A stretch of 64,000 bases of DNA, taken from the NCBI RefSeq assembly GCF_003664255.1, contig NZ_RCCV01000001.1, forward strand, positions 806,001-870,000, written 5' to 3'. Below are positions 7,171-25,801 of this stretch, in pieces; position 1 is the first letter of the stretch; each line of letters begins with the position of its first letter. The stretch is from Micromonospora sp. M71_S20. GTDB taxonomy: Bacteria; Actinomycetota; Actinomycetes; Mycobacteriales; Micromonosporaceae. Under the pieces are notes generated by a model. The model saw only the letters and a list, made by a program, of their open reading frames with translations, ran no database searches and was not told where the DNA came from. Made by a program: the position numbers and the translations under genes.

Positions 7171-8214
7171 CTAGGCGCCCGAGATCGCGCCGCCCGGCTC
7201 CGGGACGTGATCAGCTCCGCCCCGGCCGGTGGCACCGGACTGCTCGGCGTCGGACCGGATGTCGATCCGCCAACCGGTCAACCGGGCAGCAAGTCGGGCG
7301 TTCTGCCCCTCCCGGCCGATGGCGAGGGAGAGCTGGAAGTCCGGCACGGTCACCCGGGCGGTGCGGGTGGCCAGGTCGACCACCTCGACCCGCAGGGCCT
7401 TGGCCGGCGACAGGGCGTTGCCGACGAACGTCGCCGGGTCGTCCGACCAGTCGATGATGTCGATCTTCTCGCCGTGCAGCTCGCTCATCACGGCACGTAC
7501 CCGCTGCCCCATCGGACCGATGCAGGCGCCCTTGGCGTTGACGCCCTGGGTGGTGGAGCGGACCGCGATCTTCGTGCGGTGACCCGCCTCACGTGCGATC
7601 GCGCCGATCTCGACCGTGCCGTCGGCGATCTCCGGCACCTCGAGCGCGAAGAGCTTCTTGACCAGCGCCGGGTGCGACCGGGAGAGGGTGATCTGCGGCC
7701 CGCGCATCCCCTTGGCCACGTGCACCACCACGCAGCGGATCCGCTCGCCGTGCACGTAGCGCTCGCCGGGCACCTGCTCGGACTGGGGCAGGACGCCCTC
7801 CAGCTTGCCGAGGTCGACGCTGACGATGCCCTTCTCGCTGCGCGCCTCGTGCGCCTGCACCACGCCGGTGACCAGGTCACCGTCGCGGCCCACGTACTCG
7901 CCGAAGTGCACCTCGTCGGTGGCCTCCCGCAGCCGCTGGAGGATCACCTGCTTGGCGGTCATGGCGGCGATCCGGCCGAAGTCGTGCGGGGTGTCGTCCC
8001 ACTCCCGTACGACGGCGCCGTCGTCGTCCAGCTCCTGCGCGTAGACCAGGGCCGCGCCGGACTTGCGGTCGATCTCCACCCGGGCGTGCGACTCCGCACC
8101 CTCGGTGTGCCGGTAGGCGGTCAGCAGCGCGGTCTCGATCGCCGCGAGGATCGTGTCGAACGGGATCTCCCGCTCGCGCTCGAGTGCGCGCAGCGCCGCG
8201 AGGTCGATGTTCAC
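7171..8214 (-). CDS. nusA: Transcription termination/antitermination factor NusA
   Basis: NusA binds RNA polymerase and nascent RNA and controls pausing, termination and rRNA antitermination. The 347-residue product has the N-terminal polymerase-binding domain ([18 protein letters not shown]), an S1 domain near residues 110-180 ([20 protein letters not shown]), and two KH domains with [14 protein letters not shown] and [20 protein letters not shown]. The length is normal for actinobacteria, which lack the C-terminal acidic repeats of E. coli NusA. Its GTG start at 8214 overlaps the rimP stop (GTGA), indicating coupling. Confidence 0.96.
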
Positions 8215-8912
8215 CTCTCCTCGTCCTCCACATCATCTTCGTCGTCGAAGTCGTCGGTGTCGTCCATGTCGTCGGGTTCGTCCGTCTCCTCGATCTCGTC
8301 GAGGCGGTGGAACTCGACCTGCACCCGGCCGGGGCCGAGCTCTGCGTACGTCCATACGGCGCGGCCGGCGTCGGTCTCCAGCACCACGCGCTCGTCGTCG
8401 GCCTCGACCACCCGGCCGGTGACCTGCCGGTCGCCGGTGGGCTGCCCGGCCTGCTGGCCGGTCGGGGCGCCCGCGCCGCGGGCGGTCACCTTCACCAGCC
8501 GGCCGACGTTGCGCCGCCAGTGCCGGGGCAGGGTGAGCGGCCGGTCCACGCCGGGGGAGCTGACCTCCAGCTGGTACTCCCCGGCGACGATGTCGCCCCC
8601 GGCCTCCTCGGCCGCGTCGAGGGCCGCGGAGACGGCCCGGGAGACCACGGCGACGGCATCCAGGTTGATCCCGCCGTCGGCGTCCACGATCACCCGCACC
8701 ACGTGCCGCCGGCCGGCGCGGGACACGGAGAGGTCCTCCAGGTCGTAACCGGCGCCGGCGACCACCGGCTCGATCACCTCACGCAGCCGGGCCCGCCGGG
8801 CGGCGAGGTCGCCGCGCGGGCCGCCGGCACGCTCCCCGCCCCGTGGGGCGTCGGCGCGTCGGGGTCTCCCCGCCGGACCCGTCGACCTCGTGGCACGGCC
8901 ACGCTGCGTCAT
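8211..8912 (-). CDS. rimP: Ribosome maturation factor RimP
   Basis: RimP assists late 30S assembly. The 233-residue protein contains [20 protein letters not shown] near residues 55-75 and [20 protein letters not shown] near 115-135, the two conserved RimP blocks. The start at 8912 is preceded by AGGAGGG. The first ~35 residues are basic, and the C-terminus ends in an unusually acidic tail of about 30 residues rich in Asp/Glu. It is the first gene of the rimP-nusA-ylxR-infB-ylxP-rbfA-nrnA operon, and the 154 bases upstream, shared with a divergent gene, should hold its promoter. Confidence 0.94.
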
Positions 8913-17086: not shown

Positions 17087-17404
17087 GTGGATCAAGGGGG
17101 TGGCACGACTCCCGTCTTCTCCGCCCAGGCGGAGATCGACGGCGGCCACCTCCGCGTCCTGATCACCGGCGAGGTGGACATGGCGACCGCCGACGTCATG
17201 TTCCAGACCGCGCTGCGGGAGTCGGCCGAGCGGGTGACGCTCGATCTCCGGGCAGTCACCTTCTTCGACTCGGCGGCGATCCACGCCGTGGTCCGGCTGG
17301 CCCAGCATCTTCCCGGCACGCTCACCGTGCTGCCGTCGCGGCAGGTCCACCGGGTGCTGGACATCTCCGGCCTGGGCGATCAGGCCTGGCTCCGCCCGGC
17401 CTGA
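17087..17404 (+). CDS. STAS-domain anti-sigma factor antagonist-like protein
   Basis: The 105-residue protein is a single STAS domain: LRVLITGEVDMATADVMFQ, then VTLDLRAVTFFDSAAIHAVV with the phosphorylatable serine in the DS motif (usual DSxG, here DSAA) near residue 63, and a C-terminal VLDISGLGD. Such proteins bind RsbW-type kinases and are inactivated by serine phosphorylation and reactivated by PP2C phosphatases. Directly downstream, on the opposite strand, is a protein carrying both those activities, so the two are natural partners. GTG 17087 was chosen; GTG 17057 is also possible, and neither has a ribosome site. Confidence 0.83.
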   Translation: MDQGGGTTPVFSAQAEIDGGHLRVLITGEVDMATADVMFQTALRESAERVTLDLRAVTFFDSAAIHAVVRLAQHLPGTLTVLPSRQVHRVLDISGLGDQAWLRPA

Positions 17405-17469
17405 GCCCTCCCGCCCTGGGCCCCCGCCGCACCGCCGGTCGCGCGCCGGAGCACCGCCGGTCGGCGCGC

Positions 17470-20400
17470 TCAGTCCGCCAGTCGCCGCCGCAGCGTCACC
17501 TCGGTCCCCTCGGCGGTACGGTTCACCGACAGCTCCCCGAGCGCCTCGATCAGCGACAGCCCCCGCCCCCGGAAGCCCGATCCGGTCGACTCCCGCCACC
17601 GGCCGCTGTCGCGCACCGTGGCGACCACCGTGCGGTCGGAGACGGTCACCTCCACGCTGATCGTCGGCTCGGCCGGCTCGACCGGGTGCTCGATGGCGTT
17701 GGCGGCGGCCTCGGAGACGGCGACCGTCAGGTCGAACAGGTCCGTCTCGCTGACCTTGTGCGCGACGAGGAAGTCCTCCAGCCGTTTGCGCAGCACGCTG
17801 AGCCGGGTGGGATCGGCCGGCAGCCGCAGCGCGAACCGGTTGAGTTCCGCCGCCTCCAGGGCGAGCACCGCGACGTCGTCGCGCAACGGTCGCCCGGCGA
17901 CCCGCTCCACCACGGCGTCGATCAGGTCGGTCACGTGCTCGCCGGGGGTGGCCGCGTCCTGCCGCAGCGTGGCCAGCGCGGCGTCGATGCCCAGCTGCCG
18001 GTCCTCGATCAGCCCGTCGGTGTAGAGCAGCAGCCGGCTCCCGGCGGCCAGCTCCCCCTCGACCGTCCGGTAGGCCGTGTCGGGGATCGCGCCGACCGGC
18101 GGCCCGAGCGCCCGGTCGTGCAGGAACGCCACGTCGTCTCCTCGGATCAGCAGGGGGGACGGGTGACCGGCGCTGGCGTACCGCATCCGGCCAGTGCGGG
18201 GGCTGAACCACAGGCAGAACACCGTCGCGAAGGAACGCCCCTCGTTGGTGCCGACGAGCCGGTTGAGCCGGGTCAGCGACTCGCCGGGATCGAAGCCCTC
18301 CAGGACGTACGCCCGCAGCGCGTTGCGGAGCTGGCCCATCGCGGCGGCCGCCCGTACGCCCTTGCCGACGACGTCGCCGATCGCCAGCACCAGCTCGTCG
18401 TCGCCGAGCGCGACGACGTCGTACCAGTCCCCGCCGACCTCCACGTCGGCGCTGCCCGGCAGGTAGCGGCTGGCCACCAGGGCGCCCGGCAGCTGCGGCA
18501 GCGACCGGGGCAGCAGGCTGTGCTGGAGCGTGGTGGCGATGCGGTGCTCGGCCTCGTAGAGCTGGGCGTTCTCCAGCCGCACCCCGACCAGCCGGGCGAG
18601 CTGGGTGAGCGCGGCCTCGTCGGTGTGGGTCCCGTCACCGTCCGGGCGCCAGACCCGCAGCTCGCCGAGCCGTTCGCCGGTGGTGCCGGTCAGCGGCAGC
18701 ACGAAGGACGGCTCGATCGAGGCCAGCCCGCCGCCGTCGGCCTCGAAGCGCATCCCGGTGGCCGAGACCACCACCCGGGCGGCCTCGGCGAGGCTCAGGG
18801 CGTGCCGCGCGGCGACCTGGAGCACGTCGGCCGTGGAGCGGGCGGTGTTGACCGCGACCGCCGCGTCGGCCAGGGCCCGCAGCCCACGGATGATCTGCCC
18901 GCGGAGCTGGCCCAGCTCGACGTTGGCCCGTACCCGGGCGGTCAGCTCCTGACCGGAGAAGGGCTTCGTGAGGTAGTCGTCGGCGCCGACCGCGAGCCCG
19001 GCGACCTCCTCGGCGGAGCCGGCCCGGGCGGAGAGCAGCACGATCGGCACGTGCCGGGTACGCGGATCCGCGCGCAACGCGGCGACCAGCCCGAACCCGT
19101 CGAGCCGGGGCATCATCACGTCGGTCAGCACCAGGTCGAACGAGCCGTCGACGGCGTGCCGCAGCGCCTCCACGCCATCGGTGACCGCGACCACCTCCCA
19201 GGACGGGGCGAGCAGCCGGGTGACGTGCTCGCGCAGGTCGGCGTTGTCGTCGGCGACCAGGATCCGGCCGGCGGCGCCGCTCCCCCGCGTCGAGCCGGCG
19301 CCGTCGGCCGGCCCGACGGCGCCGGTCCAGAGCGCCGTCTCCGCGACGTAGAGGTCGGCCTGCGCCAGCTCGACCTGCCCCGGGGGGCCGGCGTCGACGA
19401 CCCGCTCGGCCGGCAGGTGCCCGGCGCCGAACGGGACGGTCACCGTGAACGTGCTGCCCTCGTCGACGCCGCTGCGCACGGCCACCTCGCCGCCGTGCAT
19501 CTCGACCAGCTCGCGGACCAGCGCCAGGCCGATCCCGGTGCCCTCGTGGCTGCGCGAACGCACCCCGGGCACCCGGTGGAAGCGCTCGAAGATCTGCGGC
19601 AGCTCCTCCGGCACGATGCCGACGCCGGTGTCGGTGACCTCCAGCCGGGCGGCCCCGTCGACCGCGCGGATCCGCACCCGGATCTCGCCGTCGAAGGTGA
19701 ACTTCACCGCGTTCGAGACCAGGTTGAGGACGACCTTCTCCCACATGTCCCGGTCCACGAAGACCGGCGCCGGCAGCGGCGGGCAGTCCACGACCAGGCG
19801 CAGCCCGGTCCGCTGGGTGGCCGACCGGAACGTGCTGGCCAGCCGGGCGGTGTAGTCGGCGAGGTCGGTGGGCTGGTAGCGGGCGGACAGCCGCCCGGAC
19901 TCCAGCCGGGAGAAGTCGAGCACCGTGTTGACCAGCTTGAGCAGCCGCAGCGCGTTGCGGTGCATGGTGGCGAGGCGGTCGGTGTACGTCTCGGGCAGCG
20001 CCGGGTCGGCCAGCAGGTCCTCCAGCGGGCCGAGCACCAGGGTCAGCGGGGTGCGGAATTCGTGGCTGACGTTGGCGAAGAAGTTGGTCTTGGCCCGGTC
20101 CAGGGCGGCCAGCTCGGCGGCGCGGGTGCGTTCCTGCTCGTACGCCTGCTGCCGCCCCACGGCCCGGGAGATCTGCGCGGCGACCAGGTCGAAGAAGTCC
20201 CGGTACTCGTCGGTGAGCGGCAGCCGGCGGGCGACGCCGACGACCACCGTGCCCACGGTCTCGTTCCCGGCGGTGACCGGCAGCACCAGCGCCTCGCCGG
20301 TCGCGTCGGCCGGCGCCTCGGTGAGCAGGTCCGTCACGGCGACGCTGGCGGCGGTGCCGGCGGCCGTGACCTCGGCGAGCCGCGCCGGCAAGGGCGTGGC

Positions 20401-21138
20401 GACCGCCCGGGGGCCGACGCCGCCGCACCCGGTCAGGGCCAGCTCGCCGGCCTCGTCGAGCAGGTACACCAGCGAGAACGGCACGTCCGACCGGTGCCGG
20501 TCGAGCACCGCCGCAGCGGTGCGACCCAGCTCGGGCCTGCTGTCCACCTCGGCCAGTTCGGTGCCCAGCTCGGCCAGCAGCCGCAGCCGACGCTCCCCGA
20601 CCACCCGGCCGGTGGTCTCGTTGACGATGCAGAAGACACCGTCGACGGCGCCGTCGGCGCCCAGGATCGGGTCGTAGGAGACGTCGAAGTAGGTCTCCTC
20701 CAGAAAACCGCGCCGGTCGAGCGGGAAGGGGTGGTCCTGCGCGCGGTACGACCGGCTGTCCCGCCGGACGCCCTCCAGCAGCGGCCCGAGCACGCTCCAG
20801 GTCTCCGCCCAGTGCTCACGGGCCGGCTGGCCCAGCACGTCCGGGTGCTTGCCACCGATGGTGGGGCGGTAGGCGTCGTTGTAGAAGGCGAGCTCGTCCT
20901 CGCCCCAGAACATGACGATCTGCGAGCTGGAGGCGAGCATCAGGCCGATCGCCGAGCAGAGCGTCGCCGGCCAGCGGTCGGGGGTGCCGAGCGGATGGGC
21001 GGACCAGTCGAGGCGGCCCATCAGCTCGCCCATCTCACCGCCGCCGGCGAAGGCGGCGGCCAGCATCGGGGGGAACTCGACGCTCTGCCCTCCCTCGGAC
21101 GGGCAACCCTCGTCCATGCCCCCCTGGGCCGAGCTCAT
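17470..21138 (-). CDS. Multidomain PAS-GAF-histidine kinase-receiver-GAF-PP2C-RsbW-like regulator
   Basis: This 1222-residue soluble protein joins two signalling systems. In order: PAS-like region (~65-190), GAF (~195-345), HisKA with phosphorylatable His near 359 (SHEFRTPL), HATPase (N-box NLVSNAVKF, DTGVGI, GTGIGLALV), a receiver near 625-740 with phosphoacceptor Asp near 674 (LTDVMMPRLDG), a second GAF (~750-860), a SpoIIE-type PP2C phosphatase (~865-1090; GGDWYDV, IGDVVGKG, YTDGLIE, LRDDVAVLALE) and an RsbW-like HATPase (~1105-1220; SEAAANAIEH, RDSGRW, GRGLSLIEALGE). Motifs look intact. Phosphorelay input could control dephosphorylation and rephosphorylation of a STAS partner. ATG 21138 follows GGGAGGA. 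Confidence 0.93.
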   Translation of the reverse strand: MSSAQGGMDEGCPSEGGQSVEFPPMLAAAFAGGGEMGELMGRLDWSAHPLGTPDRWPATLCSAIGLMLASSSQIVMFWGEDELAFYNDAYRPTIGGKHPDVLGQPAREHWAETWSVLGPLLEGVRRDSRSYRAQDHPFPLDRRGFLEETYFDVSYDPILGADGAVDGVFCIVNETTGRVVGERRLRLLAELGTELAEVDSRPELGRTAAAVLDRHRSDVPFSLVYLLDEAGELALTGCGGVGPRAVATPLPARLAEVTAAGTAASVAVTDLLTEAPADATGEALVLPVTAGNETVGTVVVGVARRLPLTDEYRDFFDLVAAQISRAVGRQQAYEQERTRAAELAALDRAKTNFFANVSHEFRTPLTLVLGPLEDLLADPALPETYTDRLATMHRNALRLLKLVNTVLDFSRLESGRLSARYQPTDLADYTARLASTFRSATQRTGLRLVVDCPPLPAPVFVDRDMWEKVVLNLVSNAVKFTFDGEIRVRIRAVDGAARLEVTDTGVGIVPEELPQIFERFHRVPGVRSRSHEGTGIGLALVRELVEMHGGEVAVRSGVDEGSTFTVTVPFGAGHLPAERVVDAGPPGQVELAQADLYVAETALWTGAVGPADGAGSTRGSGAAGRILVADDNADLREHVTRLLAPSWEVVAVTDGVEALRHAVDGSFDLVLTDVMMPRLDGFGLVAALRADPRTRHVPIVLLSARAGSAEEVAGLAVGADDYLTKPFSGQELTARVRANVELGQLRGQIIRGLRALADAAVAVNTARSTADVLQVAARHALSLAEAARVVVSATGMRFEADGGGLASIEPSFVLPLTGTTGERLGELRVWRPDGDGTHTDEAALTQLARLVGVRLENAQLYEAEHRIATTLQHSLLPRSLPQLPGALVASRYLPGSADVEVGGDWYDVVALGDDELVLAIGDVVGKGVRAAAAMGQLRNALRAYVLEGFDPGESLTRLNRLVGTNEGRSFATVFCLWFSPRTGRMRYASAGHPSPLLIRGDDVAFLHDRALGPPVGAIPDTAYRTVEGELAAGSRLLLYTDGLIEDRQLGIDAALATLRQDAATPGEHVTDLIDAVVERVAGRPLRDDVAVLALEAAELNRFALRLPADPTRLSVLRKRLEDFLVAHKVSETDLFDLTVAVSEAAANAIEHPVEPAEPTISVEVTVSDRTVVATVRDSGRWRESTGSGFRGRGLSLIEALGELSVNRTAEGTEVTLRRRLAD

Positions 21139-21454: not shown

Positions 21455-22168
21455 TCAGCGACGCGCCAGAGCGGCCCGGCCTTCCCGGGCGGCCCCGACC
21501 AGTGCGGCGATCGGTCGCGGGTCGGGCTCGTTCTCCGGGTGCCACTGCACGCCGAGCAGGAAGGGCCGGTGCGGATCCTCGACCGCCTCGACCACCCCGT
21601 CGTCGGACCAGCCCGTCGCCGTCAGCCGGCCCGGGTCGGCCACCGCCTGGTGGTGGTAGGAGTTGACCCGCCCCACCCCGGCCATCACCGTCGCGGCCAG
21701 GCTGCCCGGGGCGAACCGCACGCCGTGCCCGCCGTAGACGCCGGGGGCGGGGCGGTGCAGGTCGTGTCCCACCAGGTCCGGCAGGTGCTGGTGCAGCGAC
21801 CCGCCGGCCGCCACGGCGAGCAGCTGCATCCCCCGGCAGACCCCGAGCACCGGCAGGTCCGTTTCGAGGGCGGCGGTGAGCAGGGCCAACTCGCCCGCGT
21901 CGCGCTCTGGGCGGCTCTCGGTGCGGGGCGCCGGAAGCTGGCCGTACCGGGCCGGGTCGACGTCCGCGCCGCCGGCCAGGACCAGGCCGCCGAGCACCCG
22001 CAGCACGTCCGCGTCACGGTCGTCCGGGGGCAGCACCACCGCCCGACCCCCGGCCGCGGTGACCGCCCGGACGTACGCCTCGGGCACCAGCACCGCCGGC
22101 ACGTCCCGCCACACCCCCCAGCCGACCGGCTCGACGTACGCGGTGATCCCGATCAGTGGCCGGCTCAC
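21455..22168 (-). CDS. Class I glutamine amidotransferase-like hydrolase (peptidase C26, PuuD type)
   Basis: The 237-residue protein matches gamma-glutamyl-gamma-aminobutyrate hydrolase (PuuD): N-terminal RPLIGITAYVEP, the LVLAGGADVDPARYG block, the nucleophile cysteine in PVLGVCRGMQLLAVAAGGSLHQ cut here to GVCRGMQ near residue 111, YHHQAV near 173, and the catalytic His-Glu in GVQWHPE near 210. The predicted reaction is hydrolysis of the gamma-glutamyl amide from a gamma-glutamylated amine product. It overlaps the SDR gene by four bases and ends the glnA-like operon, which supplies the matching ligase and dehydrogenases. Confidence 0.9.
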   Translation of the reverse strand: MSRPLIGITAYVEPVGWGVWRDVPAVLVPEAYVRAVTAAGGRAVVLPPDDRDADVLRVLGGLVLAGGADVDPARYGQLPAPRTESRPERDAGELALLTAALETDLPVLGVCRGMQLLAVAAGGSLHQHLPDLVGHDLHRPAPGVYGGHGVRFAPGSLAATVMAGVGRVNSYHHQAVADPGRLTATGWSDDGVVEAVEDPHRPFLLGVQWHPENEPDPRPIAALVGAAREGRAALARR

Positions 22169-22932
22169 AGCGGGGTGACGTACGCGCCGGTGATGCCGCC
22201 GTCCACGACGAACTGCGCGGCGGTCATGAAGGACGAGTCGTCGCTGGCCAGGAACGCCACTGCCGCGGCGATCTCCTCCGGCTTCCCGAACCGCCCCATC
22301 GGCACGTGCACCAGCCGGCGGGCGGCCCGCTCCGGGTCGGCGGCGAAGAGTTCCAGCAGCAGCGGGGTGGCGACCGGGCCGGGGCAGAGCGCGTTGACCC
22401 GGATGCCCTCCCGGGCGAACTGCACGCCCAGCTCCCGCGTCATCGCCAGCACCCCGCCCTTGCTCGCCGTGTACGCGATCTGCGAGGTGGCCGCTCCCAT
22501 CAGGGCCACGAACGACGCGGTGTTGATGATCGAACCCCGGCCCTGCCGGCGCATGTGCGGGATGACGTGCTTGCAGCAGAGGTAGACGCTCGTGGTGTTG
22601 ACCCGCAGCACGCGTTCCCAGGCGTCCAGCCCGGTGGTCAGGATGGAGTCGTCCTCCGGCGGGGAGATGCCGGCGTTGTTGAACGCCACGTCGATGCGCC
22701 CGTGCCGCTCGGCCACCCCGTCGAACAGGTCCCGTACGGCCGACTCGTCGGCGACGTCCGTGGCGACGAACTCGCCGCCGACCTCCTCGGCGGCCCGCCC
22801 GCCCGCCTCCGGGTCGACGTCCACGCAGACCACCCGGGCCCCCTCGGCGGCGAACCGCCGCACGGTGGCCAGCCCGATCCCGCTGCCCGCTCCGGTGACC
22901 ACGGCCACCCGGCCCTCAAGACGACCCCGCAC
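22165..22932 (-). CDS. Short-chain dehydrogenase/reductase
   Basis: The 255-residue protein is a classical SDR. It has the cofactor loop TGAGSGIG near residue 14, acidic residue VCVDVDPEAGG near 36 (favouring NAD over NADP), NNAGISPPE near 86, the catalytic Ser region INTASFVALMGA, and YTASKGGV with the Tyr-x-x-x-Lys pair near 156-160. The GPVATPLL and GRFGKPEEIAAAVAFLASD motifs are also typical. The substrate is unknown; context suggests oxidation or reduction of an intermediate of amine catabolism. It lies four bases downstream of the aldehyde dehydrogenase stop. Confidence 0.92.
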   Translation of the reverse strand: MRGRLEGRVAVVTGAGSGIGLATVRRFAAEGARVVCVDVDPEAGGRAAEEVGGEFVATDVADESAVRDLFDGVAERHGRIDVAFNNAGISPPEDDSILTTGLDAWERVLRVNTTSVYLCCKHVIPHMRRQGRGSIINTASFVALMGAATSQIAYTASKGGVLAMTRELGVQFAREGIRVNALCPGPVATPLLLELFAADPERAARRLVHVPMGRFGKPEEIAAAVAFLASDDSSFMTAAQFVVDGGITGAYVTPL

Positions 22933-22936
22933 CTGA

Positions 22937-24292
22937 TCACTCCTCCGTCGCGATGAACACGTTCTTGACGTCCGTGAAGGCGTGCAGCGCGTCGGGGCCC
23001 AGCTCGCGGCCCAGCCCGGAGCGCTTCATCCCGCCGAAGGGCGTCCAGTACCGCACCGAGGAGTGCGAGTTGACGCTGAGGTTGCCCGCCTCCACCGCCC
23101 GCGCCACCCGCACCGCCCGGCCCACGTCCCGGGTCCAGACCGAGCCGGACAGGCCGTATTCGGTGTCGTTGGCCAGCCGGAACGCGTCGGCCTCGTCGTC
23201 GAACGGCAGCACCGAGACGACCGGGCCGAAGATCTCCTCGCGCCAGTGCCGGTCCGCGGGCGAGTCGGCGAGCAGCACCGTCGGGGCGTACCAGAAGCCG
23301 GGGCCGTCGGGGCGGGAGCCGGCGAAGGCCACGTTCGCCCCGTCGACGTACCCGGCCACCCGGTCCCGCTGGGCCGCGGAGATCAGCGGCCCCATCTCGG
23401 CGGTCTCCCGGGCCGGGTCCTCCACCCGCAGCGCGCGCACCCCCGGTTCGAGCAACTTCAGGAAGCGGTCGTACGCCGGCCGCTGGACCAGGATCCGCGA
23501 CCGGGCGCAGCAGTCCTGACCGGCGTTGTCGAAGACGGCGTACGGGGCGGTGGCCGCCGCCCGCTCCAGGTCGGCGTCGGCGAAGACGAGGTTGGCGCTC
23601 TTGCCGCCCAGCTCCAGGGTCAGCCGCTTCACCTGCGCGGCGCAGCCGGCCATGATCCGGGTGCCCACCTCGGTGGAGCCGGTGAAGCAGACCTTGCGGA
23701 CGGCGGGGTGGGTGACGAACCGCTCCCCCACCACCGACCCGGCGCCCGGCAGCACGGTGAACACGTCGTCGGGCACCCCCGCCTCGCGCGCCAGCTCGGC
23801 CAGGCGCAGGGCGGTCAGCGGGGTCAGCTCGGCGGGCTTGAGCACCACGGTGTTGCCGGCGGCGAGCGCCGGCGCGAACCCCCAGGCGGCGATGGGCATG
23901 GGGAAGTTCCACGGCACGATCACCCCGACCACGCCGAGCGGCTCGTGGAACGTCACGTCGAGGCCGCCCGGCACGGGAATCTGCCGCCCGGTCAGCCGCT
24001 CCGGCGCGCCCGCGTAGTAGTCGAGGACGTCGCGGACGTTGCCTGCCTCCCACCGCGCGTTGCCGATGGTGTGCCCGGAGTTGCGCACCTCCAGCCGCGC
24101 CAGCTCCTCCAGGTGCGCGTCGACCACCGCGGCGAACCGCCGCAGCACCCGCGCCCGCTCCCCCGGCGCCACCCCCCGCCAGCGCCGGAAGGCCGCGTCC
24201 GCCCGCGCTATCGCCGCATCGACCTCCCCGATCGACGTGGCGGGCACGAACCCCACGACCTCCCCGGTAGCCGGATCCACCACCTCACTCAA
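22937..24292 (-). CDS. NAD-dependent aldehyde dehydrogenase (AldC/PuuC-like)
   Basis: The 451-residue protein is a standard aldehyde dehydrogenase. Motifs: PWNFPMPIAAWGFAPALAAG (cofactor binding), the general-base Glu in LELGGKSANLVF near 230, and the nucleophile Cys in NAGQDCCARSRILV near 265. Two adjacent cysteines are present at the active site, a common variation. In this operon it probably oxidises the gamma-glutamylated aminoaldehyde to the acid. TTG at 24292 was chosen because GGAGGG lies 6 bases upstream; a longer N-terminus starting further upstream runs through the intergenic hairpin and is unlikely. Confidence 0.92.
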   Translation of the reverse strand: MSEVVDPATGEVVGFVPATSIGEVDAAIARADAAFRRWRGVAPGERARVLRRFAAVVDAHLEELARLEVRNSGHTIGNARWEAGNVRDVLDYYAGAPERLTGRQIPVPGGLDVTFHEPLGVVGVIVPWNFPMPIAAWGFAPALAAGNTVVLKPAELTPLTALRLAELAREAGVPDDVFTVLPGAGSVVGERFVTHPAVRKVCFTGSTEVGTRIMAGCAAQVKRLTLELGGKSANLVFADADLERAAATAPYAVFDNAGQDCCARSRILVQRPAYDRFLKLLEPGVRALRVEDPARETAEMGPLISAAQRDRVAGYVDGANVAFAGSRPDGPGFWYAPTVLLADSPADRHWREEIFGPVVSVLPFDDEADAFRLANDTEYGLSGSVWTRDVGRAVRVARAVEAGNLSVNSHSSVRYWTPFGGMKRSGLGRELGPDALHAFTDVKNVFIATEE

Positions 24293-24345
24293 GCCCACCC
24301 CTCCCCTCTCCCTGCCGCTGTCTGCGGCGTCTGCGACGTCTGCGG

Positions 24346-24422
24346 CGTCGATGATGCAGTTGTGGTGCCTCACGAAAGCCACGGACCGCCACCAAACGGC
24401 CACCACAACTCCTTGATCGACG
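24346..24422. repeat. Long imperfect inverted repeat between glnA-like and aldehyde dehydrogenase genes
   Basis: Arms 24346-24367 and 24401-24422 pair at both ends (CGTCGAT and AGTTGTGGTG) around an internal 5-base bubble. The right arm CACCACAACTCCTTGATCGA plus CG nearly equals the right arm of the element at 53749-53825 (19 of 22 bases). It starts 18 bases after the glnA-like stop, so it could terminate or attenuate that transcript. It may be a dispersed repeat. Confidence 0.6.
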
Positions 24423-24439
24423 GAACGGGGGGTGGGGGG

Positions 24440-25801
24440 TCAGAGGCGTTCGAAGCCACGGGTCAGTTCCCAGTCCGTCACGGCGGCGTCGAAGGCCGTC
24501 AGCTCGATCCGTGCCTGGTTGGCGTAGTGGGCCGTCACCTCGTCGCCGAACGCCTCGGCGGCCACCGTCGAGCCCTCCCAGAGGGCCAGGGCGTCGCGGA
24601 GCGTGCCGGGAACCCGGTCGGCGGCCGGATCGTCGTACGCGTTGCCGGTGCACTCCTCGCCCAGTTCCAGCTCCCGCTCGATGCCGTGCACCGCGCCCGC
24701 GACGAGTGCCGCGATCGCCAGGTACGGGTTCACGTCCGCCCCGGGCACCCGGTTCTCCACCCGCATGCCCTGCCCGTGCCCGACCAGCCGCAGCGCGCAG
24801 GTGCGGTTGTCCGTGCCCCAGCGCAGCGCGGTGGGGGCGAACGACCCGGGCTGGTAGCGCTTGTACGAGTTGATGTTCGGAGCGAACAGGAGGCTGAACT
24901 CGCGCATCGTGGCCAGCAGTCCGGCCAGCACCCGCTGCCCGGTCGTCGACAGGTGCGCCGGCCCGTCGCCGAGCATCGCCGAGCGGCCGTCGGCGTCGCG
25001 CAGCGAGAAGTGGATGTGGCAGGAGTTGCCCTCCCGCGCGTTCGGCTTGGCCATGAAGGTGATCGACATACCCTCCTGGGCGGCGATCTCCTTCGCCCCG
25101 TTCTTGTAGATCACGTGGTGGTCGGCGCAGGCCACCGCCTCGTCGTAGCGGAAGGCGATCTCGTGCTGGCCGAGGTTGCACTCCCCCTTCGCGCTCTCCG
25201 GGGTGAGCCCCGCGCCGGCCATCTCCCGCCGGATGCGGCGCAGCAGCGGCTCCACCCGGGCGGTGCCGAGCAGGGAGTAGTCCACGTTGTACTGGTTGGC
25301 CGGGGTCAGGTCCCGGTAGCCGCGCCGCCAGGCGTCCTCGTACGAGTCGCGGAACAGCACGAACTCCAACTCGGTGCCGGCGTACGCGGTCAGCCCGTGC
25401 GCCGCCAGCCGGTCGAGTTGCCGGCGCAGGATCTGCCGGGGCGAGGCGACCACCGGGGACCCGTCCAGCCAGGCCAGGTCGGCCAGGAGCAGCGCGCTGC
25501 CCGGCTGCCAGGGCACCCGGCGCAGCGTGTCGAGGTCCGGCACCATGGCGAAGTCGCCGTAGCCGCGTTCCCAGCTCGACATCGCGTACCCGTCGACCGT
25601 GTTCATGTCGACGTCCACGGCCAGCAGGTAGTTGCAGCCCTCGCTGCCGTGTGCGGCCACCTCGTCGAGGAAGTAGGGCGCGTGGAACCGCTTGCCCTGC
25701 AACCGGCCCTGCATGTCGACCAGGGCCAGCACCACGGTGTCGATCTCGCCCTCGGCGACGGCGACCCGCAACTGTTCCAACGTGAGCGGAGCTTTCCTCA
25801 T
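24440..25801 (-). CDS. glnA: Glutamine synthetase-like ligase (GlnA4 type, gamma-glutamylation of an amine)
   Basis: The 453-residue protein has glutamine synthetase signatures: AGTELEFVLF near residue 128, ECNLGQHEIAF near 205, NSCHIHFSL near 258, and GTDNRTCALRLVG near 330. It lacks the features of the canonical housekeeping GlnA and groups by eye with GlnA3/GlnA4, which ligate glutamate to polyamines or ethanolamine. The neighbouring aldehyde dehydrogenase, SDR and PuuD-like hydrolase fit a gamma-glutamyl amine pathway. I recall the same four gene types next to mapB in Mycobacterium tuberculosis. ATG 25801 follows GGAGG; a promoter with palindromic spacer lies just upstream. Confidence 0.88.
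   Translation of the reverse strand: MRKAPLTLEQLRVAVAEGEIDTVVLALVDMQGRLQGKRFHAPYFLDEVAAHGSEGCNYLLAVDVDMNTVDGYAMSSWERGYGDFAMVPDLDTLRRVPWQPGSALLLADLAWLDGSPVVASPRQILRRQLDRLAAHGLTAYAGTELEFVLFRDSYEDAWRRGYRDLTPANQYNVDYSLLGTARVEPLLRRIRREMAGAGLTPESAKGECNLGQHEIAFRYDEAVACADHHVIYKNGAKEIAAQEGMSITFMAKPNAREGNSCHIHFSLRDADGRSAMLGDGPAHLSTTGQRVLAGLLATMREFSLLFAPNINSYKRYQPGSFAPTALRWGTDNRTCALRLVGHGQGMRVENRVPGADVNPYLAIAALVAGAVHGIERELELGEECTGNAYDDPAADRVPGTLRDALALWEGSTVAAEAFGDEVTAHYANQARIELTAFDAAVTDWELTRGFERL

Follow-up and report, generated by a model that had tools for sequence, protein, structure and literature searches.

The window examined here is a stretch of 64,000 nucleotides from the soil actinobacterium Micromonospora sp. 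M71_S20 (RefSeq assembly GCF_003664255.1, contig NZ_RCCV01000001.1, positions 806,001 to 870,000 of the forward strand), and all coordinates are those of this whole stretch unless another locus is named. It carries a convergent gene pair encoding a fusion kinase with the domain order PAS-GAF-HisKA-HATPase-receiver-GAF-PP2C-RsbW-like and a small single-domain STAS protein. The features of the pair are given below, with residues numbered on the full 1222-residue protein and Pfam matches counted above curated cut-offs.

17087..17404, plus strand: single-domain, RsbV/SpoIIAA-like STAS protein of 105 residues with a GTG start and an FFD-S-AAI site, the predicted substrate (PF01740 and PF13466; serine conserved; match to SpoIIAA 1auz at E 0.035)
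17405..17469, no strand: gap of 65 bp between the convergent stop codons (median between matches in congeners 40 bp, n = 106)
17470..21138, minus strand: whole fusion kinase gene, ATG start, 1222 residues (open reading frame (ORF) and Pfam)
17488..17823, minus strand: RsbW-like serine kinase domain, residues 1106-1217 (PF13581, E 9e-23; 3ke6 match)
17854..18402, minus strand: PP2C/SpoIIE phosphatase, residues 913-1095 (PF07228, E 7e-49; fold; metal Asps)
18514..18903, minus strand: second GAF-like fold and long helix (about residues 841-875) into PP2C (AlphaFold, mean pLDDT 88.7)
18928..19263, minus strand: receiver, residues 626-737, with Asp673 (Pfam)
19429..20094, minus strand: His-kinase core, HisKA and HATPase_c, residues 349-570, with His359 (Pfam)
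20158..20529, minus strand: first GAF, residues 204-327 (PF13185)
20536..21087, minus strand: N-terminal PAS-like domain, residues about 18-201 (fold only: AlphaFold, Foldseek)

Pfam places GAF_2 (204-327), HisKA (349-415), HATPase_c (462-570) and Response_reg (626-737) in the N-terminal half of the fusion kinase, followed by SpoIIE/PP2C (913-1095) and HATPase_c_2 (1106-1217) in the C-terminal half; for both proteins, none of the NCBIfam matches listed reached its curated cut-off. The N-terminal 200 or so residues gave no Pfam PAS match at E≤0.01. An AlphaFold model built from 21 sequences contains PAS- and GAF-like elements in this part (mean pLDDT 84.5), and Foldseek matched it best, at a whole-model TM of about 0.3, to PAS-GAF modules in PDB structures of phytochromes and DosP, which supports the modelled PAS/GAF folds and not light sensing. 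The model of the C-terminal 478 residues comprises a GAF-like part, a 35-residue helix, the PP2C domain and a GHKL kinase; the second GAF-like fold, which forms the linker between receiver and PP2C, has no Pfam match and its GAF identity is read from the order of elements in the model. By sequence (E 2e-42) as well as by fold, the C-terminal part best matches, and resembles, the RsbU-RsbW part of Rv1364c (3ke6), a protein with no His-kinase or receiver that carries its STAS domain in the same chain. The fusion kinase is a hybrid histidine kinase, having HisKA with its histidine, HATPase_c and a receiver with its aspartate in a single chain, and the pair also contains the N-box Glu/Asn of RsbW, the metal Asps of PP2C and the phosphosite serine of STAS, all residues of known functional meaning. 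Both ORFs, 65 bp apart and with the domains now confirmed by Pfam, are as described in the original prediction, which was made from the DNA letters and their translations.

The catalytic residues of both proteins are conserved. Among 89 loci from the genus and family, 78 encode PP2C and RsbW parts in a single kinase ORF. Genome G026 contributes two of these kinase entries, and the STAS of the window itself appears in two of the STAS rows. His359 and receiver Asp673 are present in 72/72 orthologues that retain the His-kinase-receiver block, the PP2C Asps in all 77 readable copies (one further copy falls in a run of unknown letters), and the RsbW N-box residues Glu1143 and Asn1147 in 78/78, while the STAS serine is found in 88/88 rows, including 10 from loci that lack an intact kinase. 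The motifs that had been called intact are, therefore, conserved in every readable orthologue examined. The fastest-diverging region is the first GAF (mean distance 0.71 vs 0.27 for His-kinase and receiver), as would be expected of a domain whose signal changes. Two genomes show anomalies ascribable to sequencing error or decay: in G104 (L079) PP2C is split over two frames, and in G119 (L080) part of the kinase consists of unknown letters.

The two genes also travel together. Both were found in 106 of 121 congeneric genomes, STAS only in 4, kinase only in 1 (G070, in which the contig ends at the kinase gene) and neither in 10, giving a Fisher p of 8e-11 with shared ancestry ignored. The pair lies on one contig in 106/106 congeners, with a gap below 200 bp in 98 and of 0.7-3.6 kb in 8. 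Micromonospora rosaria DSM 803 (L174) likewise has the pair. Across 150 genomes of the family, 16 of which belong to the genus of the window, 46 have both genes, 7 STAS only, none surely the kinase only, and 97 neither, 'neither' denoting no match at the cut-offs used (1e-150 or 1e-120 for the kinase, 1e-15 or 1e-12 for STAS) in a search in which only the best few kinase candidates per genome were scored. These 97 include G122, with a 53%-identical match to kinase residues 25-777 that is ended by the edge of a 3.8-kb contig and is unplaceable; G063, which has a paralogue match only, was excluded from the kinase count. The window-type kinase without STAS was, therefore, seen in none of the family genomes, with G122 undecided, and in a single congener, at a contig end. 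A failure of the two genes to co-occur in related genomes had been named beforehand as an outcome that would refute the proposal, and the proposal came through.

All eight congeners with a wide gap were inspected and carry genes inserted between STAS and kinase, including a FUSC-like gene in at least five, a 731-residue ORF in L081 and L082 (the L081 copy having no Pfam match) and a GNAT gene in L088. An inserted gene was considered as a missing common partner and rejected, the inserts being varied and confined to 8 of 106 congeners. At L084:4023-4415 (G018), a short ORF between the pair resembles, by eye, a RelE/HigB-type toxin and is probably a toxin-antitoxin insert. On its other side, the STAS gene is invariably flanked by a divergent gene for an M24 peptidase that resembles methionine aminopeptidase (55/55 fetched loci). 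Other neighbours vary, the VIT1 and Peptidase_C26 genes being undetected in many loci retrieved from the family. Upstream of the kinase in the window (21455-25801, minus strand) lie Peptidase_C26/GATase, short-chain dehydrogenase, aldehyde dehydrogenase and glutamine-synthetase genes, which look like a polyamine-type catabolic set.

Natural deletions indicate which parts of the fusion kinase are dispensable. The His-kinase-receiver block is absent from 6 of 78 readable kinases, which are nested among block-bearing forms. Three of them (G016, G020 and G069) form a single clade in the genus of the window (support 100/97) and read PAS-GAF-GAF-PP2C-RsbW over about 830 residues, the matches to residues 1-329 and 746-1221 abutting in G069; the other three, in genus g29 (G247, G251 and G193, of 804, 782 and 626 residues, respectively), occupy three places among block-bearing forms. 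All six retain PP2C, RsbW and the STAS gene with catalytic residues intact. Since the block is repeatedly absent while the rest is kept, PP2C-RsbW-STAS is the core, the part maintained together by selection, to which the His-kinase-receiver adds an optional, removable input.

The architecture extends beyond the family. In a class-level search, matches at E≤1e-120 were obtained in 50/296 genomes, many of them to the PAS-GAF-HK-REC half of ORFs of about 1300-1500 residues. A separate clade of actinobacterial kinases of about 1340-1560 residues has the same domain order, usually with STAS directly downstream. Twenty of 80 loci (Streptomyces, Mycolicibacterium, Saccharothrix, Actinoplanes and others) were selected as having HK, REC, PP2C and RsbW matches and a REC-PP2C spacing of about 300 residues; window-type loci, the shorter-spaced type, and L235 and L237, which have the right spacing with no detected RsbW and no 3' STAS, were left out. 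In these chosen long-spaced loci STAS lies within 100 bp on the 3' side in 20/20, on the same strand in 19 and convergent, as in the window, solely in Pseudonocardia acaciae; some of these STAS matches score low, at 22-25 bits (L187, L191 and L211), and in the L243 STAS Gly replaces the Asp preceding Ser. A second set of long-type loci has STAS immediately 3' in 12/15 (L165, of 2026 residues and with no RsbW match, was left out). Pfam confirms the domain order in L160, L163, L211 (Streptomyces cellulosae) and, for the part given, L243, and finds PAS between REC and PP2C in all four, with a GAF there too in L160, in which the N-terminal region scores as PAS_4. The window type and the long type are separate clades in the PP2C-RsbW tree (100/99) and in the STAS tree (99/97), the latter setting the window STAS apart from most STAS of the long-type clade. 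A common origin of the two STAS groups was considered, but this tree, with 96 columns and weak deep forks, favours neither a common nor a separate origin. The claim that one protein joins a hybrid kinase to a partner switch was correct, but the architecture is not unique, being common in Actinobacteria.

Several known systems share parts of this design, and the statements made on them here follow the portions available of the articles cited. SCO7327 of Streptomyces coelicolor, an orphan with a phosphorylatable Asp and no transmembrane helix, is one of three hybrid kinases for which the signalling cascade is unclear, in a species that in principle has no histidine phosphotransfer (HPt) protein (PMC9739842); it has been named OsaD and is thought to act in osmotic sensing (PMC9739823), and SCO7325 is the RsbV used in SigB activation (PMC8346170; also PMC5733086 and PMC11472566). 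The kinase-STAS-STAS order of the Streptomyces loci L196 and L211 fits SCO7327-7326-7325, and from this gene order, as opposed to the sequence of SCO7327 itself, SCO7327 probably belongs to the long-type clade. OsaD-type relatives and the window protein have HisKA, HATPase_c, REC, PP2C and RsbW in identical order. They differ in that the former have about 300 residues with PAS between REC and PP2C, a mostly co-directional STAS and their own clade, whereas the window protein has about 150 residues there, a convergent STAS and a place outside that clade, and so lacks the OsaD-type specifics. The HsbR-HsbA and CrsR-CrsA systems of Pseudomonas and Shewanella also combine a REC-PP2C-RsbW chain with a small STAS partner, HsbR acting on HsbA (PMC6482189). 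Their receivers are fed by separate hybrid kinases via HptB, whereas in the window protein HisKA-HATPase precede REC in the chain, which sets it apart from the HsbR/CrsR type. In RsfS-RsfR-RsfB of Mycobacterium smegmatis and RsbK-RsbY of Bacillus cereus, a His-kinase controls a receiver-PP2C protein that dephosphorylates a STAS-type antagonist, with sensor kinase, phosphatase and RsbW kinase all being separate proteins, in contrast to the single chain of the window. Phosphorylation of the receiver makes PP2C less active in RsfR, where it acts on the STAS protein RsfB, and more active in RsbKY (PMC10950880). In RsbU, signals are passed on by a helix that leads into PP2C, and the same is predicted for other phosphatases (PMC12143880). 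For the window-type pair itself, no publication was found among the matches listed, subscription journals lying mostly outside the literature searched.

Since the window protein unites parts seen in the HsbR, RsfR and RsbU helix systems, an input-gated bifunctional STAS kinase-phosphatase is the favoured interpretation, and we hold with moderate confidence that the gene pair is a partner switch of this kind, the pairing of enzyme and substrate being suggested by neighbourhood and conservation. In the proposed mechanism, the RsbW-like domain would phosphorylate the FFDSAAI serine of the adjacent STAS protein and the PP2C domain would dephosphorylate the same serine, the PAS-GAF-His-kinase-receiver half setting the balance between the two. 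His359 would pass its phosphate to Asp673 within the same protein, so that neither a separate response regulator nor an HPt protein would be needed, and the state of Asp673, with a sign of control that may be either positive or negative, would alter PP2C activity via the second GAF-like fold and the long helix that runs into PP2C. Unphosphorylated STAS would bind an unlinked RsbW-type anti-sigma factor or another target. Besides the domains, the conserved catalytic residues and the precedents, this mechanism is favoured by the shared contig in all 106 congeners with both genes and the short gap in 98 of them, the near absence of the window-type kinase without STAS, the retention of PP2C, RsbW and STAS in the block-less forms, and the STAS gene found immediately 3' in most loci of the separate clade of the same domain order.

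Other observations weigh against it. Thirteen shorter-spaced relatives with the same domains (L127-L131, L167-L169, L183, L184, L207, L212 and L236) have STAS directly 3' only in L131, and within the 80-locus set none of the shorter-spaced L179 (the L130 locus again), L183, L184, L207, L212 and L236 has one immediately 3'. The long-type paralogue of the organism's own genome (L151:5561-9739; G000:C1 about 4732560-4736738; 1392 residues, HK-REC-PP2C-RsbW) is also without an adjacent STAS, so a neighbouring STAS is not required by the fusion. A mirror-tree comparison of 65 of 68 loci, those having all nine regions at 75% coverage, gave raw correlations with STAS of 0.83-0.91 for every region without favouring RsbW; given all other regions, the partial r was -0.05 for RsbW, 0.00 for GAF1 and 0.06 for GAF2, as compared with 0.17 for PAS, 0.23 for REC, 0.27 for PP2C and 0.31 for HK, an outcome that is neutral to negative for RsbW-STAS specificity. 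STAS is, moreover, retained with its serine in 10 fetched loci without an intact kinase: three congeners in which the kinase is deleted (G076, G090 and G113, the Peptidase_C26 gene being lost together with it), G014, in which a broken remnant is left, and six g18 genomes, including G137, whose contig stops just past STAS and whose genome-wide search yielded no kinase. The ratio of STAS to M24-peptidase divergence is 3.75 in the 4 kinase-less vs 3.83 in 14 kinase-bearing congeners, and 2.67 in the 6 g18 genomes vs 3.70 in 31 other loci of the family; decay of STAS after kinase loss is rejected on these values, STAS evolving no faster relative to the peptidase. Because STAS persists without an intact kinase, it has either another role or partners beyond the fusion kinase. 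The original prediction had also called the route self-contained, and this part does not stand, given that STAS is equally constrained in these ten genomes, that it has the fixed M24 neighbour, and that the own genome has 17 SpoIIE and 25 STAS matches over cut-off (alongside 30 HATPase_c_2 matches, some of which are probably ordinary His-kinases).

Three other explanations have to be weighed against the same evidence. The adjacency might be inherited synteny without function, the STAS protein serving other kinases and phosphatases and the fusion kinase acting on another STAS. The kinase-independent rate of STAS evolution, the M24 neighbour, the many STAS and SpoIIE matches and the unspecific mirror-tree would all fit this; yet the kinase is never seen without STAS except at contig ends, though the rest of the neighbourhood is variable, the pair persists even where genes have been inserted into it, and STAS also adjoins such fusions in an independent clade. 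We consider the explanation rather improbable. A direct anti-sigma function is unlikely too, if not quite to the same degree: here the RsbW-like domain would itself hold a sigma factor that unphosphorylated STAS displaces, in the style of CrsR-CrsA, and it is through this domain that CrsR and HsbR bind RpoS (PMC6482189). The own genome does have three sigma genes of the SigB/F/G class that exceed the curated cut-off, but these lie away from the pair, and no sigma factor gene was seen beside it in the window, the neighbours in relatives having been covered in part. Any sigma output of the switch is, therefore, put forward as a conjecture.

Least probable of the three is that the His-kinase-receiver block acts mainly on a separate regulator, with a receiver that controls neither PP2C nor RsbW. 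The block is dispensable for retention of the output, and the PAS-GAF-HK-REC front half is paired with other outputs in several phyla, as this explanation would have it; however, no response regulator gene was found among the scanned neighbours, and in HsbR and RsfR, as far as the available text of PMC6482189 and PMC10950880 goes, a receiver that is fused to a PP2C protein or forms part of it does exert control over it. An input-gated bifunctional kinase-phosphatase acting on the neighbouring STAS thus remains the favoured interpretation, in which we infer the identity of the substrate, the transfer of phosphate within one chain, the direction of control and the target downstream.

Related arrangements occur elsewhere in the genome and beyond. 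The front half (L185-L250) is also present in records titled Proteobacteria, Chloroflexi, Cyanobacteria and Planctomycetota, where a second HK or HK-REC often follows REC in place of PP2C-RsbW. A third paralogue of the own genome (L251:5312-8320; G000:C1 about 4509311-4512319; 1002 residues) joins PAS-GAF-HK-REC directly to an RsbW-like kinase with no PP2C match, and has relatives at L252:4803-7745 (980 residues) and L253:5326-8124 (932 residues); no STAS was detected near this type in the stretches fetched for L251, L252 and L253. At L254:4533-5672, one ORF of 379 residues encodes a SigB-class sigma factor that carries a STAS domain at its C-terminus, near a 242-residue protein with STAS and HATPase_c_2 (7838-8566), a locus that may be like the Actinoplanes SsdA system in the portion available of PMC10733313.

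The gene pair is real and conserved, but its design is a variant of an architecture already common in Actinobacteria. The natural deletions, block-less kinases on the one hand and STAS without an intact kinase on the other, separate the switch core from its input. It is about evenly balanced whether such fusions in general, including SCO7327 of S. coelicolor, are one-protein His-Asp-to-serine converters that set the phosphorylation of an adjacent STAS with no need of a response regulator, the His-kinase-receiver being a plug-in sensor gained and lost on a stand-alone partner switch. For two clades of hybrid kinases with unclear cascades, among which SCO7327 was counted as one of three in S. 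coelicolor in a 2022 review (PMC9739842, in the portion available), the fusion-plus-STAS pair offers a direct and testable answer.

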